Both the position numbers and the translations under genes were made by a program. A model generated the notes under the pieces. That model had not been told where the DNA came from and did not search any database. It saw only the letters and a list, made by a program, of their open reading frames with translations. From assembly GCA_036924855.1 (NCBI GenBank), contig JBAGRP010000001.1, positions 5,630,001 to 5,694,000 of the forward strand: a DNA stretch of 64,000 nucleotides, written 5' to 3'. This document shows, one piece after another, positions 14,479 through 25,184 of the stretch. The first letter of the stretch is position 1. Every line of letters starts with the position of its first letter. Source of the DNA: Nitrobacteraceae bacterium AZCC 2146 (lineage in GTDB: Bacteria; Pseudomonadota; Alphaproteobacteria; Rhizobiales; Xanthobacteraceae).

Positions 14479-16602
<2,124 letters not shown>

Positions 16603-16794: not shown

Positions 16795-16994
16795 GGGAGC
16801 GCGCCGCCCATGCCCCTCCCCATTGCGGGGGAAGCCTGCCCCCGACTTGATCGGGGGTTGGGAGGGCCGTGCCACGCGCTCCGACGCCGCTGGCAGGCCC
16901 CGCCACTATCGCCACGCCGTCCGTTGCAATCTATAGTCGTGCGCATTGAACGCATGAGAATTCGGGTTTCGTCCGCAACGTAAGGAGTTTGCCG

Positions 16995-17369
16995 ATGGCC
17001 ATGATGCTTGCCCCTCTGTCGCTCCACGATGGCGATGCGCTGCCTTCCGCCGCGGGCGGCGTGGGGCCGTTCTCCGGCGGCAACGCCCAGACTATCAATC
17101 CGTGGCGCTGGATAGCCAATGTGATGGGCAACCAGTTCAGCCTCTTCACCGTCAACCTCGGCCGCTCCAGCGCGCCGGAGGTGGAAGCCGAGATCTTGCA
17201 GGACGTCGGCTCCTACGGCCGCCAGATCGGCCGCATCAGCGAGGTCGTCGAGGTACTGGTCCGCCGCCTGCCGCGCGACACGCTCAGCGAAGACGAACTC
17301 GCTGCCGTCGAGGATTTTTCCGCGCAGATGCGCGAGATCAAGCGGATCAAGGAGCGGCATGGAAGGTGA
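16995..17369 (+). CDS. Hypothetical protein
   Basis: 124 aa. TAAGGAG at 16981-16987 is a good ribosome-binding site for the ATG at 16995. The middle (NPWRWIANVMGNQFSLFTVNLG) is conserved-looking, and the C-terminal half (VEAEILQDVGSYGRQIGRISEVVEVLVRRL, written here as its start and end) is amphipathic and likely helical. There is no signal peptide and no known domain. It lies at the left edge of the AT-rich island but keeps the G+C-rich codon use of the core genome. Confidence 0.6.
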   Translation: MAMMLAPLSLHDGDALPSAAGGVGPFSGGNAQTINPWRWIANVMGNQFSLFTVNLGRSSAPEVEAEILQDVGSYGRQIGRISEVVEVLVRRLPRDTLSEDELAAVEDFSAQMREIKRIKERHGR

Positions 17370-17615
17370 GGAGAGGTGCAGTGGCCCGGATGTCGCTGCA
17401 CTCATCCGGGCACGCTTGCTGTTTCCGTGGATCATCATCGCGGCGCAGGTGGTGACGAACAGGCAGATGGCGGGGGCAGGGTGAGGGAGCATAGGTAGAT
17501 TGGCGAATCGCAGTCCGCCGATGCATAACGAAGGCGGCGCAACAACATGCGACCTATTGCGTCGGACGCGCTCTTCGCTAATCAAAGTTAGACTAAAATA
17601 TGCGAGGTGATATCG

Positions 17616-18857
17616 ATGATTGTTCGTCAATCCGTTCGTTGTACCATTTGTAGTCACGACCATACGCTTCGTATTGCGATCGGATCGGGGAAAACGCAGG
17701 CTCACTCGTTTGCGTGCGTGAACTGTGAACAAAAGCTATCTATTTATTTCGAGAAGAATTACGGAGATGCGAGCTTTCATGGCCATCAATTCGAAAACTG
17801 CGAACCTTCCGGTAGGGAGGGGACTATAGTAAATTTACATCCGGACTTTGTTATACCGGCAGACAAGGTGCACAAAGACAAACACTTTCAGTCGATCGAA
17901 ACTATTCAGAGATTGCACAGAACGGGTGCTTTGGAGCGAATGTTAAATTCGTGGAAGAATGATGAGGCGAGTGAAGTAAATTACAAAGAAGAAATTACTC
18001 GAAATAAGACTGCATACGACAGCGCAGATTTCTTGGAATTGGGTGCAAAGATACTTGCGCTGTATGCCTCTGGAAAAGTGGAAATAGCGCAGGATTTGCT
18101 GACGAAGGAAGCTGCCGCATATGGTCTGCCAGAGGGCATAATCATAGACGACATTCTCGACAGATTATTTGCGGTGGGAGGTGATCGCGCAATGAGGTGT
18201 CGTGTAGCGCTTCAGGATCTTTGGGGACGTGCGAAAGAAGCAGATCTGGAGGGGGCTAAGTCCGCCTGGTCTTACTTAGAGGCTGAGCAGAACAGCGAAT
18301 TATTAAGCTCGTTCTCTGGCCTAGTGTCGTCATTTTCAAAGTCTCACAGAAATTTTCTCCCAATAATGCATAGCTTGAGAAGCTTTGGCAGTGTTCCCAA
18401 TGATGGGTCCGTGTCGTCGATCAACTTTGACGATACGAAGATGTTTTATGGGAATATCTACGAGGTTGTGACGTCGGCGTTCATAATGCCTGCCGTAATT
18501 AACAACGTCGCTAACGGTCGCTCGTTTGATCGTTTTGAGCGGCTGATTCTCAAAGATTATCTCAATCTTGATAAATCCGGGAGGCACAACTGTTTCGCCA
18601 ACGGAAGTGATCTATCCATTCTTTCGGAAAATTTGGACAATCAGTTGCGAAATGCATCGCATCATCAAGCAATATCGATTGTATCTCGCACTGGACGAAT
18701 TTCGTTTCGCGCAGGTAAGAGCTCAATTAGGCGTTCCATGGGGTATGCTGAATATCTGGAGAAGACCTTCTTGCTATTTGAAGTTCTTCTGGGGTTGATG
18801 CATTTCATAGTCGGAAATAGACGGGATAGTAGTGCACATGAAGGACTAAAAGCGTAA
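17616..18857 (+). CDS. Uncharacterised zinc-ribbon protein with C-terminal HEPN-like motif
   Basis: 413 aa from the ATG at 17616, with GAGGTGA 5 bp upstream; a GTG at 17607 is in frame. The N-terminus has two CxxC pairs (CTIC, CVNC) about 27 residues apart, typical of a zinc ribbon. The middle is helical and charged. The last third has FYGNIYEVVTSAF, then LDNQLRNASHHQAIS. The RNASHH part fits the Rx4-6H signature of HEPN-type RNases and toxins. The gene is clearly richer in A+T than its neighbours, with matching codon use, so recent transfer is likely. A second unknown gene starts 55 bp later. No function is known; an RNA-targeting defence or toxin role is only a hypothesis. Confidence 0.6.
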   Translation: MIVRQSVRCTICSHDHTLRIAIGSGKTQAHSFACVNCEQKLSIYFEKNYGDASFHGHQFENCEPSGREGTIVNLHPDFVIPADKVHKDKHFQSIETIQRLHRTGALERMLNSWKNDEASEVNYKEEITRNKTAYDSADFLELGAKILALYASGKVEIAQDLLTKEAAAYGLPEGIIIDDILDRLFAVGGDRAMRCRVALQDLWGRAKEADLEGAKSAWSYLEAEQNSELLSSFSGLVSSFSKSHRNFLPIMHSLRSFGSVPNDGSVSSINFDDTKMFYGNIYEVVTSAFIMPAVINNVANGRSFDRFERLILKDYLNLDKSGRHNCFANGSDLSILSENLDNQLRNASHHQAISIVSRTGRISFRAGKSSIRRSMGYAEYLEKTFLLFEVLLGLMHFIVGNRRDSSAHEGLKA

Positions 18858-19447
18858 TCTGCCAACAGCGCGCGCAGGAGGAGCAATACGCTGCGCCTGC
18901 GAGCTGGAGTGGATGCTTTCGAGCGAAAGGATTGGCCGCGCAATGTTGAATCAGAAAGCGCAACAAAATCCGGATTACGTCAAATACGCAAATTGCATGG
19001 AGGAGATAAAGCGGAGGCAGTTAGCTATAGATGATATTTTGTGCGCGGCGAAGACAACTACATTCAAGTACACCAATGTTGAGTTCGTTGCTCTTCAGTT
19101 TCGAAAGATTTTTGAGCTGGTTATTTTATCTACAGTTGCTTCGCATCATCATTTTTTTGACGGGGTTGTCAGGAAGATTGGAAAAGAATGGGAGATAAGA
19201 AAGGTCGTTGCTATAGTCGAAAAGAAGAACCCGTCATTTTATCCTAAACCCATAACGCGCGTGCCGAGTGTCGCCCCGGGTGTAAAAGATGATCTCGTTC
19301 CTGTTGAGGACGGATACCTTACCCTCGCTGACTTGATTGAGGCGCATGGCCGGATCGGGATCTTGATGCATGCTCATAGCCCGTATCGCGAGGGGCTGCT
19401 TCTCGATGAGATTGAAAAGCAGTTCCCTATCTGGCGAGAGCGGCTAG

Positions 19448-20888
19448 CACTACTTTGGCAATTTTTTAGCGGCGGCGAGTTTTTGGGATTCCCAAGAGAA
19501 GGTTTGCGTGATTCATGGGAGGTCGGCTGGCGGAGGGCCGATCTATGGACGTGGACTGGCAAGTTGATCTTGATCGCTGGCTTGCGCCGTTTGTCGCGGC
19601 GCTGCGGCACAAGACGCGGGCCCGGATGTGCCCTCTCTATGTCGCGGGTTTGATTGGTCCAGGAGACCGCAAGAGTGTTCAGCCGATGGCAGCACGCGCC
19701 AGCGGTGTCGGTTACGATCAGCTCCATCATTTCGTCGCTGCCGGAGTTTGGGACACTGCTCCACTCGAGGCTGCCCTGCTGAAGGAGGCAGATAGATTGG
19801 TTGGCGATGATGCAGGTTTTCTTGTCATAGATGATACGGCGTTGCCCAAGAAGGGACGTCACTCGATTGGCGTCGCGCCACAATATGCCTCGTCGCTCGG
19901 AAAGACTGCCAACTGTCAGTCGCTGGTTTCGCTAACGTTGGCGTCGCGGGAGGTGCCGGTGATGGTGGGCCTGCGGCTGTTCCTGCCCGAGAGTTGGACA
20001 AATGATCCTGAGCGCATGGCGCGGGCCCGTGTGCCGAAGGATAGACAGACTGCTCTGACAAAGCCGGAGATTGCCATCGAGGAGATCGACCGCGTCATCG
20101 CCTCCGGTGCGCGTTTCGGCTATGTGCTTGCCGATGCAGGGTACGGCTCCAGCGGGCCTTTCCGTCAGGCTCTGAGCGAACGCGGTCTGCTGTGGGCGGT
20201 GGGTCTGTCGCGGCGCCAGAACGTCTATCCCGCCGACATTGCCCTGATCTTCCCCGTCGCGAAGACCGGAAAGCCCCGCAAATACCACATCCCTGATCAG
20301 CCGCCGGTCTCTGCTGAAGCGTTATTGGCTGAAGGCAAATGGCAAAGGGTCAGTTGGCGGCGGGGCACCAAAGGTCGGCTGACATGTCTCTTCACTGCCC
20401 GCCGTGTCCGGGTTGCGGATGGCCATAAGCACCGGATGCTCAATAACCGTGTGCAGTGCATGCCTGGCGACGAGGTCTGGCTCGTCGGCGAGCGGCGATC
20501 GACCGGGGAGCAAAAATACTATGTGTCGAACCTGCCGGTCGATACCACCATCAAGACACTCGCGGCTACTATCAAAGCCAGATGGGTCTGTGAACAGGGC
20601 CACCAGCAGCTCAAGGAAGAGCTTGGGCTCGACCACTTCGAAGGAAGATCCTGGACCGGATTACATCGACATGCCTTGATGACGATGATCGCCTACGCCT
20701 TCCTACAGTCCCGCCGCCTTAAAGCAGCGGGACGAAAAAAAAAGAATCTCGGGACCGCCACCACAACCAAGCATGCCGGCCATCAGGCAAGCAATCCTCG
20801 ACCTCTTCGCAAGACCTCCACCCCGACGATGCCCTCACTGTGACATGCTACTTGCAGATATCGCGAAGCCTAAAGTGCCAAAGTAGTG
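19448..20888 (+). mobile_element. IS701-family insertion sequence, complete
   Basis: 1441 bp bounded by perfect 13-bp inverted repeats: CACTACTTTGGCA at 19448-19460 and its complement at 20876-20888. CTAG flanks both sides (19444-19447 and 20889-20892), the typical 4-bp target duplication of IS701-family elements. It carries one transposase gene whose restored stop lies inside the right inverted repeat. It interrupts an unknown gene whose frame is recovered when the IS is removed, so the insertion is recent. Confidence 0.93.
19545..20886 (+). CDS. IS701-family transposase, frameshifted at an A9 run
   Basis: The ATG at 19545 follows CGGAGGG by 7 bp. DDE-type residues are seen in VIDDTALPKKGRHS, VLADAGYGSSG and CEQGHQQLKEELGLDHFEG. 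In the primary frame the protein ends at 20843 after 432 aa with an unconserved tail. At nine consecutive A (20735-20743) the loss of one A restores a tail with GPPPQPSMPAIRQAILDLF and CPHC, ending at 20886 (446 aa). That tail fits related transposases. The product may need slippage at the A run, or this copy may be newly broken; an assembly error in the homopolymer is also possible. Confidence 0.85.
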
Positions 20889-21066
20889 CTAGTTCGATTG
20901 CTCAATAATCACCTCATTCGATTCCCCGGAGACGATGCTTTCCTCTATGTCGGGATGCAGAGCGCCGATACGGGAGCGGTCCATACGTCATATTTTGAAA
21001 AGCTTTAGTTCCCTGTGCTTGTCTGCTTGAGAGAAAACATATCTGCAAGATATACCGAATCTGATA

Positions 21067-21094
21067 TTGACAACAGTCCTATCTTGACTATAAT
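21067..21094 (+). promoter_or_regulatory. Near-consensus sigma-70 promoter
   Basis: TTGACA (21067-21072) and TATAAT (21089-21094) are both perfect matches, with a 16-bp spacer. Transcription would begin near 21101, exactly where an 11-bp stem starts. No open reading frame with a credible start follows, so it more likely serves an RNA. Confidence 0.65.
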
Positions 21095-21100
21095 CCTCTT

Positions 21101-21480
21101 CATCCCGCCCCGATGAGAGGGGCGTTCGCGGCGTCCGTGGTCGCGGGGCGGGATGCGGTGGCGCGGCAGCGTCAGGCCGGAGCGAAGGTCGCAGGGCGCA
21201 AGCCCGGATGCGAACGTGCGCCTTGTACAAAGGGTGCGTTCAAGGCCGGATGAGCGTGAGCGGCGCGAGCCGAGGCTGACGACCACGCTGGCGCGCCGGC
21301 CCAAGTCGTGTGGTTCCTGGGTGCCTAATGGGGCACCCCGGGGCGGAGAGTTCGCAACGCCAACCGGCCTGCGAACCGCATCCTCAGCTCCGGGCGTCGA
21401 CCAATCCGCCGGGAAGAGCACGAAGCAAGCCGGAAGCACACCGCGTGCGGAACGCCGGGTGATCCCCCGGTGAATCCGGA
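21101..21480 (+). ncRNA. Candidate structured non-coding RNA / repeat element, copy 1
   Basis: CATCCCGCCCC (21101-21111) pairs perfectly with GGGGCGGGATG (21145-21155) at the predicted 5' end. Another hairpin is GGGTGCC, TAATGG, GGCACCC (21319-21338). A compact CCGGG/CCCGG hairpin lies near 21459-21474. The region is very G+C-rich although the DNA just before it is AT-rich. Open frames here have arginine- and proline-rich, shadow-like translations. A shorter relative with the same promoter layout lies at 31929-32040. The 3' limit is not visible; similar palindromic sequence runs on toward 21650. Between 21009 and 21724 no protein gene is supported. Confidence 0.4.
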
Positions 21481-21724
21481 AGTCCCGGGCGCACTATTTG
21501 CCGTCTACGGCATCCGCGCTTGGGCCATGGGTGCATCGGGCACCCGGCGTTCCGCGCGCCCTCTGTTGGAGGGCGGGATGGAATGGCTCACACCTCGGGC
21601 GCTGTGCGCCGCGAGATCGCGAACCCGTATCCGCAGCAAGGCGAATTTAACCAGGAGCGCCCGGTTTTTGACCTGCGTGCAAATCGCATGGCATGATGAA
21701 GCCATTGCACAGGGGGAATCGAAT

Positions 21725-22549
21725 ATGTCGGGACGACGTTTTGCTACCGCTTTTGGCGCGCTTGTCCTGACACCGCTATTGTTCGCCGCTCCCGCCTCCG
21801 CCGCCCGCTGCGGTGGCGATTTCAATACTTTCGTGTCCACGATGTCGGCCGAGGCCGCCGCCGCCGGCATCTCGCAGGGCGTGGTCTCGCAGGCCTTTGC
21901 CGGGGTGACGCAGGACCCGGCGGTGCTGTCGTTCGATCGGCGCCAGCGCGGCACCTTCAACAAGAGCTTTGAGCAATATGTCTCGACGCGGGTAGGTGCC
22001 GGGCGCATCGGCATCGGGCTGCAGATGCTGCAGCGCCATGCGGCGCTGCTGTCGCGGATCGAGCAGCGTTTCGGCGTGCCGCCTGTCATCGTGGTGGCGA
22101 TCTGGGGGCTGGAATCGGATTTCGGCCGCGGCGATATCGGCAAGATGCCGGTGATCCGCACGCTCACGACCATGGCGCATGATTGCCGCCGCACCGAGCT
22201 GTTCCAGGGTGAGCTGCTGGCGGCGCTGAAGATCCTGCAGCGCGGCGATCTTCCGCAGCGCGATCTGATCGGCGCCTTTGCCGGCGAAATCGGCCAGACG
22301 CAATTCCTGCCGTCGTCCTACATCAAATACGGCGTCGATTTCGACGGCAACGGCCATGTCGACCTCCGGCACAGCGTGCCCGACGTGCTGGCCTCCACCG
22401 CCAACCTCCTGCACACCGCCGGCTTCAGGAATGGCGCGCCCTATGGTGAAGGCACCGCGAATTTCGAGGCGATGCGCGAGTGGAACAGGGCGACGATCTA
22501 CCGCAAGACCATCGCCTATTTCGCCGACCGGCTGTCGCAGGGGCGGTGA
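21725..22549 (+). CDS. Lytic murein transglycosylase, MltB/SLT_2 type
   Basis: 274 aa from the ATG at 21725, preceded by AGGGGGAA. A Sec signal peptide runs to about residue 27 (LLFAAPASA before ARCGG). The catalytic Glu lies in AIWGLESDFGRG. EIGQTQFLPSSYIKYG and VDFDGNGHVDLRHSVPDVLAS are family core motifs. It cleaves peptidoglycan between MurNAc and GlcNAc, forming 1,6-anhydro ends, in the periplasm. It lacks the C-terminal peptidoglycan-binding domain found in longer relatives. Confidence 0.9.
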   Translation: MSGRRFATAFGALVLTPLLFAAPASAARCGGDFNTFVSTMSAEAAAAGISQGVVSQAFAGVTQDPAVLSFDRRQRGTFNKSFEQYVSTRVGAGRIGIGLQMLQRHAALLSRIEQRFGVPPVIVVAIWGLESDFGRGDIGKMPVIRTLTTMAHDCRRTELFQGELLAALKILQRGDLPQRDLIGAFAGEIGQTQFLPSSYIKYGVDFDGNGHVDLRHSVPDVLASTANLLHTAGFRNGAPYGEGTANFEAMREWNRATIYRKTIAYFADRLSQGR

Positions 22550-22721
22550 GCGCCATCCCCCTTCATCAATTCAAAACCACACTGTGGATTACACAGCCGC
22601 GGTGAGACTCCGTTAACCCCCAAGGTTGCAATTTACCGCCCAAGGGAACTTGGTGGCGAGAACTTGCGACGGGGATGACGGACGTGACCACAGACGAGGC
22701 ACGACAGGCCGGGGGGCTCCC

Positions 22722-23954
22722 ATGCTGAGCGTGCCGACGCTGTTCACGGTGTTCACCGTCAACTTTCTGGCGATGGGCCTGGTCTGGACTTACGTCATGA
22801 CCAGCTATCCGAATTTCGCCGCTGCGCGCTACTGGACCGCCGCCGCCTTCGCCGCCGCCGCTGGCACCGGCATGTCGATGCTGCGCGGCGCGGTCGATCC
22901 CTGGATTCCGATCGTACTCGGCGGCACGCTTCTGTTGCTGGCCTCCAGCCTGGGCGCCATGGGCATCAGCCAGTTCTATCACAGGAAGGTGGCATGGCCG
23001 CCTTATCTGGCGATCATCGCTGTCAGCGTCGTCGCCATCGCGGCGTTCACGCTGTGGCACGACGACATGCCGATCCGGACCCTGGTCTATTCGCTCGCCC
23101 AGTCGCTCACCATGGCGATGACGCTGCCGCTGGTGCTGTCGCGCCGGGCTGACGGCAGCAATCCCGGCGCGCGGATGGCCGGCGCCATCGCCTTGCTGGT
23201 GATCGCCGTGCATGCGGTGCGCTCCGGCGCCGGCCTGCTGCAAATCGGTGGCACCATGACGCTGACCGATTTCAACAGCTTCCAGGCTGTCATGGTGCTG
23301 CTGCTGGTGTTCCTGTCGATGGCGTGGAATTTCGGCTTCCTGCTGATGGCGATCGACGCGCTGCGCCGCGAGGTCGCCGATCTCGCGCTGGTCGACGATC
23401 TCACCGGCGTCGCCAACCGCCGTCATCTGCTGCAGCGCCTCACCGAGCAATGCGCGCTGTCGCTGCGCACGGAAAAGCCCTTTGCGCTGCTGGCGATCGA
23501 TCTCGACGGCTTCAAGGAAATCAACGACGGCTTTGGCCACGCCGCCGGCGACGCCTGCCTGCGGCGTTTCACGGCGATGGCGCAAACAAAACTGCGGCCC
23601 GGCGATCTGCTCGCCCGCAGCGGCGGCGACGAATTCTGCATCGTGCTGCCGGCCACCGGCCTTCACGAGGGCGCCGTCATCGCGCGCCGCATTCTCGAGG
23701 CCTGCCGCGATAACGCTGCGGCCTGCACGCCCGGCGACATCCCGGTCGCCGCCTCGATCGGCGTGGCGCAGTGGCAGCCGTCCATCGGCAACCACCCCGA
23801 ACGCCTGATCGCGAGCGCCGACCAGGCGTTGTACGGCGCCAAGAAGGACGGCAAGAACCGCTTTGCGATCTGCGACCTCGCCACCACCCCGCCGCTGGCG
23901 CCGGAAATCGGCAACGCGCCGGCGCCCGTGCAGATGCGGCGCACGGTGGCATAG
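22722..23954 (+). CDS. Membrane diguanylate cyclase (GGDEF), first tandem copy
   Basis: 410 aa from the ATG at 22722, after GGGGGG. The first ~210 residues carry about six hydrophobic segments, likely a membrane sensor. The GGDEF domain follows, with DDLTGVANRR, an intact GGDEF at about residue 301 and RPGD five residues before it, a fit to the inhibitory I-site RxxD. It should make cyclic di-GMP from two GTP, with product feedback. A paralogue with the same length and motif spacing starts 12 bp after its stop. Confidence 0.9.
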   Translation: MLSVPTLFTVFTVNFLAMGLVWTYVMTSYPNFAAARYWTAAAFAAAAGTGMSMLRGAVDPWIPIVLGGTLLLLASSLGAMGISQFYHRKVAWPPYLAIIAVSVVAIAAFTLWHDDMPIRTLVYSLAQSLTMAMTLPLVLSRRADGSNPGARMAGAIALLVIAVHAVRSGAGLLQIGGTMTLTDFNSFQAVMVLLLVFLSMAWNFGFLLMAIDALRREVADLALVDDLTGVANRRHLLQRLTEQCALSLRTEKPFALLAIDLDGFKEINDGFGHAAGDACLRRFTAMAQTKLRPGDLLARSGGDEFCIVLPATGLHEGAVIARRILEACRDNAAACTPGDIPVAASIGVAQWQPSIGNHPERLIASADQALYGAKKDGKNRFAICDLATTPPLAPEIGNAPAPVQMRRTVA

Positions 23955-23966
23955 GGGGCGGCGGCG

Positions 23967-25184
23967 ATGCTGAATTTCTCCACATTGTGGGTCATCTATC
24001 TCGGCAACTTCGTCGGGACCGGCCTGGTGTGGGTCTATGTCGCGCGCAGCTATCCGAATTTCGGTGCGGCGCGGTTCTGGTGCGCGGGGTCGTTCGTCGT
24101 CGCGGCGGGTGCGGCGATATCGCTGCTGCGTGGTGTTGTCGATCCGCTGGTTCCGATCCTGCTCGGCAACGGAACGATGGTGCTCGCCTCCTGTCTCTGC
24201 GTCATGGGCGTGCAGCGGTTCTACGACCGGCCGGTGGCGTGGCGCGCCAGCGCGCTGATCGTTCTCCTCACTTTGGCCAGCCTCGCTTTCTTCGCGATCG
24301 GGCGCGACGAAATGTCGGCGCGGATCGTGGTCTACTCGCTGGGCCAGTCGATTCCGCTGCTGCTGGCGCTGCCGCTGCTGCTGTCGCGCCGGATCGGCGA
24401 CGGCGGTCCGGGCGCCCGCATGGCCGGCTATCTCGCGCTGGTGATGATCGCGCTCTATGTCATCCGCTCGGTCGCCTGCCTGCTGCGGGTCGATGGCGAG
24501 GTGACCTTCGTCGACTTCAACGGCCTGCAAAGCGCGCTGATCGCACTGTTGATGTTCATGGCGATGGCGTGGAATTTCAGTTTCCTGCTGATGGCGATCG
24601 ACCGGTTGCGCGGCGAGGTCGCTGCATTGGCGCTGGTCGACGATCTCACTGGCGTCGCCAACCGCCGCCATCTGCTGCAGCGCCTCACCGAGCAATGCGC
24701 GCTGTCGCTGCGCACCCGCGCGCCGTTCGCGCTGCTGGCGATCGATCTCGACGGCTTCAAGTTGATCAATGACAGCTATGGCCACGCCGCCGGCGACGAA
24801 TGCCTGCGGCAGTTCACCCGCGCCGCGCAAAGCCGGCTGCGCCCCGGCGACATGCTGGCGCGCGCCGGCGGCGACGAATTCTGCATCGTGCTGCCGGCCA
24901 CCGCGCTGCCGGAGGCGGCTCAGATCGCGCGCCGCCTCCTCGAGGCCTGCCGGGCGCAGGCGGTGCCGAGCGCCGGCCGGATGCTGCCGCTGGCCGCCTC
25001 GATCGGCGTCGCGCAATGGTCGGAGCAGATCGGCCACGCACCGGAACGCCTGATCGCTGCCGCCGACCAGGCACTGTACTCTGCCAAGAACGAGGGCAAG
25101 AACCGTTGTGCGATCTACAACCCCGCGCCGCCGCTGGCGCCGGAGATCGAGGAAGCGCCCGCGCCGATGCGCACGGTGGCGTAA
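23967..25184 (+). CDS. Membrane diguanylate cyclase (GGDEF), second tandem copy
   Basis: 405 aa. Same architecture as the gene just upstream: about six membrane segments, then DDLTGVANRR, RPGD five residues before GGDEF, and GGDEF again at residue 301. Long runs in the cyclase domain are nearly identical to the first copy at DNA level, while the membrane parts differ more. This points to tandem duplication with a diverging sensor, or to gene conversion in the output domain. The 12-bp gap implies co-transcription. Confidence 0.9.
   Translation: MLNFSTLWVIYLGNFVGTGLVWVYVARSYPNFGAARFWCAGSFVVAAGAAISLLRGVVDPLVPILLGNGTMVLASCLCVMGVQRFYDRPVAWRASALIVLLTLASLAFFAIGRDEMSARIVVYSLGQSIPLLLALPLLLSRRIGDGGPGARMAGYLALVMIALYVIRSVACLLRVDGEVTFVDFNGLQSALIALLMFMAMAWNFSFLLMAIDRLRGEVAALALVDDLTGVANRRHLLQRLTEQCALSLRTRAPFALLAIDLDGFKLINDSYGHAAGDECLRQFTRAAQSRLRPGDMLARAGGDEFCIVLPATALPEAAQIARRLLEACRAQAVPSAGRMLPLAASIGVAQWSEQIGHAPERLIAAADQALYSAKNEGKNRCAIYNPAPPLAPEIEEAPAPMRTVA

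Follow-up and report, generated by a model that had tools for sequence, protein, structure and literature searches.

Two adjacent genes predicted to encode HEPN-like proteins in a variable slot downstream of rpoD in Nitrobacteraceae bacterium AZCC 2146

Ribonucleases (RNases) of the HEPN superfamily drive many abortive-infection systems. Tha of Staphylococcus aureus prophages, in the portions of its description used here (PMC11087260), is a stand-alone protein with a C-terminal HEPN RNase motif (R265NSIMH270) and an abortive-infection-like mechanism. The HEPN survey of Anantharaman et al. (2013, PMC3710099), in the parts used here, already lists zinc-ribbon fusions of HEPN, and the zinc-ribbon HEPN layout as such is not new; a family 'Bxe_C0808, in operon with AbiU2' is also listed. 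The present analysis concerns two adjacent AT-rich genes (gene 1 and gene 2), both on the plus strand between rpoD and an mltB-like gene (both border genes named by eye), in a stretch of 64,000 nucleotides (hereafter, the window; positions 5630001-5694000 of the 7.64-Mb, one-contig genome of Nitrobacteraceae bacterium AZCC 2146). We consider it rather probable that these are two separately acquired accessory genes in a variable slot, which holds known anti-phage systems in some sister genomes, with gene 1 as a stand-alone HEPN protein and gene 2 inactivated by an insertion sequence (IS). No Pfam, NCBIfam or PADLOC model scored above its cut-off for either protein, and a literature search (titles and abstract openings; subscription papers and preprints mostly outside its coverage) returned no description of either family. 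Both families are unnamed in the defence and domain libraries searched and, being of predicted HEPN type, would be new members of a known superfamily.

The initial annotation suggested that the pair may be a single, horizontally acquired module of defence or toxin-like type, and named a lack of co-occurrence of the two genes among the findings that would speak against this. The genes lie on one strand, 55 bp apart as it had stated if gene 2 starts at ATG 18913, and 55-85 bp apart when the second possible start is considered. However, a gene 2 relative was absent from all 31 gene 1 loci outside the window (24 + 7 examined; two near-duplicate pairs included), and a gene 1 relative was absent from all 11 gene 2 loci. 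Note that loci L011, L022, and L027 end close to gene 1, and therefore a neighbouring gene there could be missed; the gene 2 loci examined were 11 of the 12 places outside this genome, a partial match in G279 (L085) being left out. Genome surveys, which overlap and were performed with a single protein as the query for the family and with a profile for the class and phylum, detected gene 1 in 1 of 198 genomes of the family, 2 of 357 of the class, and 3 of 388 of the phylum, the corresponding numbers for gene 2 being 3, 7, and 4 (own genome included in each count), so that neither is a core gene; both were found together only in the genome of the window. Conserved adjacency, the criterion for a toxin-antitoxin pair, was observed at none of the 31 and none of the 11 loci. 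As far as the present data reach, gene 1 and gene 2 form a neighbourhood, not a module.

A true two-gene module, in which the HEPN RNase would work with a second HEPN-like regulator or sensor, has to be weighed here, as the pairing sounds like the Bxe_C0808/AbiU2 operon, which is known to us from its description only (PMC3710099, in part). The spacing, the common strand, and the similar base composition of the genes would fit such a module, as would that listed operon and the name AbiU2-like given in UniRef to one gene 2 homologue (P0135); AbiU2 is a small HEPN-like protein, as gene 2 is predicted to be. We regard the module as improbable, given the missing partner at every locus and the absence of any second genome with both genes among the 198, 357, and 388. 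Assignment of gene 2 to AbiU2 was rejected: none of 40 gene 2 homologues, including P0135, matched Pfam HEPN_AbiU2 (PF18734) at E values up to 1, nor did any protein of this genome, and hhalign gave a probability of 0.1% for gene 2 against an AbiU2 profile, an insensitive comparison with only six AbiU2 proteins. In addition, five of these six contain R[NDH]xxxAH (by eye), whereas gene 2 does not. The upstream gene at 16989-17369 was also rejected as a part of the module: among 17 further genomes of the genus it was matched only once, and only in part, and no link was seen.

The database search with the gene 1 protein gave 232 matches including itself; among the best 120 of them, the top two non-self matches showed 45% and 42% identity, and the others 33% or less. 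The protein matched PHROG 13366 (E value, 7.3e-15), for which PHROGs assigns no function. Zn_ribbon_Elf1 was too weak to be accepted (best E value, 6.6e-5; 42 of 90 rows; 12.7 bits for the window protein vs a cut-off of 29.8), and no credible match was obtained by the PDB sequence search. Alignment A3 combines the window protein with 89 of the 119 non-self matches listed. Some short records missing the N-terminus (P0071 and P0073, kept in alignment A1) and many near neighbours were left out of it, and therefore the cysteine counts are favoured: C9, C12, C34, and C37 were conserved in 88, 89, 90, and 90 of the 90 sequences, respectively. These residues form the two CxxC pairs pointed out in the initial annotation, as was the RNASHH motif, located at residues 345-350. 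This motif by itself is weak evidence, because R[NDH]x3-5H arose somewhere in 1841 of 5000 shuffles of the gene 1 protein; the invariance of its R, N, S, H, and H (90/90) is not due to chance. The HEPN motif, Rx4-6H with a polar residue after R, is thus found as R345-N346-A-S348-H349-H350. As for the second acidic residue of HEPN (often Ex3[KR]), E283 is invariant (90/90), but the window protein has no K/R four positions after it.

In the structure model of the gene 1 protein (pLDDT, 91.9), an N-terminal zinc ribbon and beta region (1-75), a helical middle (92-257), and a putative HEPN region (about 271-412) were distinguished, and helix 342-349 carries the motif. Fold comparison gave moderate-score matches to the Csm6 HEPN and to a HEPN toxin, where VIA scores of less than 8 (for helical bundles, less than about 13) may be due merely to an arrangement that many proteins share. 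The alignment and the model together support a HEPN-like protein with a putative zinc ribbon, which would be a metal-independent RNase. Gene 1 resembles the HEPN superfamily RNases in its helix-borne Rx4H with polar N and in these fold matches; it differs from them in the lack of an above-cut-off family match and in having an N-terminal beta region and a helical middle of its own. That gene 1 is instead a zinc-binding RNA-handling protein without a nuclease role, the motif being structural, appears very improbable, given that R, N, and both H are invariant on a helix within the HEPN-matching part and that, in contrast to housekeeping genes, gene 1 has a patchy distribution and a high AT content.

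Set beside Tha, by description only, gene 1 shares the stand-alone state and, in prediction, the C-terminal HEPN. In contrast, Tha-1 has, according to the same portions of PMC11087260, 301 amino acids (aa) and no recognised N-terminal domain, whereas gene 1 encodes 413 aa with the zinc ribbon. Gene 1 would most likely be an RNase that acts alone in abortive infection, broadly as Tha does, and functions independently of gene 2. The zinc ribbon/beta region and the helical middle could sense infection or hold the enzyme off, and a phage product would trigger the protein; the C-terminal HEPN regions would dimerise, the paired R345/H350 sites would cleave RNA without metal, and the loss of RNA would halt growth of the infected cell ahead of phage release. 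Gene 1 thus combines an invariant predicted catalytic motif with a zinc-ribbon head that could act as a sensor. Gene 2, as a second HEPN-like gene, probably arrived in the same slot and is now inactivated.

The gene 1 homologues were located on 18 genome contigs (including those of Rhizobium, Sphingomonas, Acinetobacter, Comamonas, Nitrotoga, Desulfohalobiaceae, and Phycisphaeraceae), 6 IMG/VR contigs, and 4 plasmid places in 3 genera; no match was found in the INPHARED phage records. In a Nitrococcus locus (L024, 8062-10432), the homologue is in two pieces with a 371-aa open reading frame (ORF) between them. Phage-type genes (ParB-methyltransferase, RuvC-like resolvase, primase, terminase small subunit, endolysin, and repressor) were present beside the homologues in L031, L032, L033, and L014. 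The commonest neighbour family was a site-specific integrase (6 of 28 loci, which with one or two exceptions are from rhizobia or sphingomonads); a RHE_PE00001-family gene came next (4 of 28). Since no neighbour family occurred in more than 6 of the 28 loci, there is no general antitoxin partner. This absence also speaks against the possibility that gene 1 serves the mobile element (through addiction, element competition, or control of the maintenance of a plasmid or prophage) instead of protecting the host from lytic phage. Such a role is suggested by the four plasmid records (two of them conjugative), by the homologues in IMG/VR contigs, and by those near VapC or integrase genes; we consider it unlikely, because the window gene 1 is in a chromosomal slot and known or candidate defence genes adjoin some homologues.

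As for the latter, the homologue on plasmid pRSpC104a of Rhizobium sp. C104 (L040) lies directly 3' of LmuC-LmuB of a Lamassu (ABC-3C) system, its annotated start overlapping the LmuB end, and in L017 and L038 a 75-aa ORF resembling part of the L040 LmuB lies just 5' of the homologue. In contrast, no unassigned ORF between the two border genes in the window exceeds 330 aa (LmuB size), and LmuB with LmuC beside gene 1 was seen in L040 only, among the minority of loci scanned for Lamassu. A distant gene 1 relative adjoins PDC-S31 in L101 (E value, 3.2e-14), and a gene 2 homologue lies some 12-15 bp 3' of a gene for an AbiJ_NTD4 protein in L091. Tentatively, and with less confidence than in our general reading, gene 1 might represent an undescribed anti-phage family of stand-alone zinc-ribbon HEPN RNases, spread over prophages, plasmids, and chromosomal slots in several phyla. 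In rhizobia, this family would have been coupled to Lamassu as an extra effector and retained after Lamassu decay (the LmuB-like pieces of L017 and L038), and the rpoD slot would be an unreported defence hotspot of the genus.

Gene 2 is split by an IS701-family element, as the initial annotation had recognized in outline, and its length of 216 aa given there agrees with the two pieces counted from ATG 18913; the alternative start, ATG 18943, is closer to the start of most aligned homologues. The element has inverted ends with 21-nt arms counting CTAG, which is duplicated on both sides, and its left end was found at six further places in this genome. The homologue profile matched 18961-19461 and 20889-21005, homology resuming at 20889. 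The database search gave 90 matches including itself, with up to 74% identity, and four of the six named matches were from Bradyrhizobium; in IMG/VR, 10 stretches fitted the pattern and none was confirmed. An intact homologue (P0122) matched PHROG 13799 (E value, 6.4e-23), again without an assigned function in PHROGs, and the structure model of an intact homologue is HEPN-like. Thus, whereas the initial annotation had proposed HEPN for gene 1 alone, the assignment of gene 1 is supported, and gene 2, which the IS has inactivated here, is likewise predicted to encode a HEPN-like protein, smaller than that of gene 1 and from a different family. Profile comparison gave no match between gene 1 and gene 2 or between gene 1 and AbiU2. 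Pfam LCD1 was rejected as too weak (best E value, 0.0018; 7 of 40 homologues). Gene 2 differs from the HEPN/MNT toxin-antitoxin systems (HepT) in having no invariant Rx4-6H; next to it are gene 1 and the IS transposase, and neither position gave a profile match to a nucleotidyltransferase as for an MNT partner. On the minus strand of L095 (7325-8614), a HEPN-like domain of the gene 2 type is in frame with an N-terminal cysteine-rich, zinc-ribbon-like part.

The slot was compared by using 10 kb 3' of rpoD from 10 same-genus genomes (a longer stretch for three). The distance from rpoD to the right border element was about 1.5 kb in G107 and about 3-11 kb in eight relatives; the right border was not found in G169. 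This element was matched in 9 of the 10 relatives and the mltB-like gene in 7. In G026 and G189, the right border rests on the element alone, which is part of a dispersed repeat; in the genome of the window, this repeat (21060-21500) recurs once almost in full (90%) and gives twelve partial matches. The 3' end of a DUF4345 gene matched 17417-17487 in six relatives (the one whole gene checked, in L067, matched Pfam DUF4345 with an E value of 6.2e-16), and in four of these six (L065, L066, L068, and L069) an AT-rich ORF (GC content, 0.49-0.52) lies within about 200 bp past its end. PADLOC was applied to 20 ORFs, picked AT-rich first, from 9 of the 10 relatives (none from G107). Strong matches were to Drt2 (G124, L068), HamA and HamB (G169, L071), and a methyltransferase (G155, L072), and therefore three of the ten relatives carry known defence genes (DRT2, Hachiman, and the methyltransferase) in the slot; the weak matches in L069 (E value, 6.3e-5) and L070 (0.0072) were not counted. 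The defence setting proposed in the initial annotation is borne out to this extent, together with the homologues beside Lamassu, AbiJ, or phage genes, and the region 3' of rpoD is possibly a defence hotspot in this genus. The AT-rich ORFs in L066 (3517-5928), L069 (1816-3015), and L065 (8158-9999) had no clear PADLOC or Pfam family (weak HNH_5 and PDC-M28B matches only) and are possibly undescribed defence genes. The methyltransferase of L072 has a weakly PD-(D/E)XK-like neighbour. In L065 (G026), a second rpoD 3' end is present at 2689-2930, about 2.3 kb past rpoD, as if left by an element integrating at the rpoD end.

Base composition agrees with the view of the initial annotation that the pair is richer in A+T than its neighbours and horizontally acquired. 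Gene 1 has a GC content of 0.453 and the gene 2 pieces have values of 0.462 and 0.479, in comparison with 0.657 for dnaG, 0.624 for rpoD (both named by eye), and 0.626 for the window. In a scan of 625 windows (1.5 kb, step of 100), values below 0.52 were found only at starts 17101-18501, with a minimum approximately five standard deviations below the mean. Elsewhere, the GC content fell below that of the flanks for gene 1 in all 26 loci compared (median difference, -0.082) and for gene 2 in all 11 (median, -0.107), and same-length windows in the same loci were equally AT-rich in 4% of cases on average; the 26 are the 31 gene 1 loci less the broken or partial copies in L024, L026, and L028 and the near duplicates L030 and L034. 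Together with the patchy distribution, this is consistent with horizontal acquisition.

Several observations weigh against two separately acquired genes with a defence role, in addition to the limit on the fold scores given above. The close spacing on one strand means that the genes could be co-transcribed here. PADLOC recognises neither gene; Foldseek (PDB and viral models) with the models of gene 1 and of the gene 2 homologue gave no significant match (best E values, 0.35, 0.74, and 0.59). In the gene 2 alignment (A4, 40 of the 90 matches), H179 was conserved in 40 of 40 and R174 in only 27 of 40, so that there is no invariant Rx4-6H; some HEPN families are recorded as lacking this motif in the parts of PMC3710099 used here. 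Seven other homologue neighbours gave no PADLOC match, in a scan that covered a minority of neighbours, and gene 1 loci L012 and L020 are not outstanding in GC content (37% and 31% of windows equally AT-rich). As for the slot, 6 of the 9 scanned relatives had no strong defence match, the count of 3 of 10 has no baseline from random 10-kb stretches, and the Hachiman genome (L071) was matched on the rpoD side only. With these points taken into account, the reading of two separately acquired genes is still the one preferred. The rpoD-mltB slot then provides a simple address for seeking more defence genes in this genus, and the IS-broken gene 2 shows slot genes of this sort decaying in place. The coordinates are summarized in Table 1.

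Table 1. Positions of gene 1, gene 2, the insertion sequence, and the borders of the slot in the window
Feature	Position	Strand	Evidence
rpoD (named by eye), bordering the variable slot on the left	14479..16602	+	90-96% identity in eleven other same-genus genomes with a full-length match
Left cargo edge: final codons of DUF4345 gene, whole in one relative	17417..17487	+	79-94% DNA match, 6/10 relatives
Gene 1, intact, 413 aa: putative zinc ribbon / all-helical / C-terminal HEPN	17616 (ATG)..18857 (stop end)	+	ORF
Gene 1 cysteines C9, C12, C34, C37 (putative zinc ribbon)	17640..17726	+	Aligned homologues
Gene 1 codons for R345-N-A-S-H-H350, predicted RNase motif Rx4H	18648..18665	+	Aligned homologues
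Gene 2, 5' piece (start 18913 or 18943)	18913..19447	+	ORF; profile match, E 3.9e-76
CTAG target duplication, left copy	19444..19447	.	
IS701-family insertion sequence	19448..20888	+	NCBIfam IS701, E 8.3e-126 (transposase); inverted ends; transposase ORF 19545-20843
CTAG target duplication, right copy	20889..20892	.	
Gene 2, 3' piece	20889..21008	+	Profile match, E 2.7e-9 at 20889-21005
Element at the right border of the slot, preceding the mltB-like gene	21086..21161	+	Matched in 9/10 relatives
mltB-like gene (named by eye)	about 21726-22549		

No tRNA was found in the window, and the Rfam scan of 16.5-22.7 kb gave a sub-threshold microRNA match only, which was taken as chance. Beyond the mltB-like gene, two adjoining genes at 22626-25184 encode proteins of similar size (442 and 405 aa), in which GGDEF-type signatures were recognized by eye; because both match the same stretch in the relatives, they are probably a tandem duplication.
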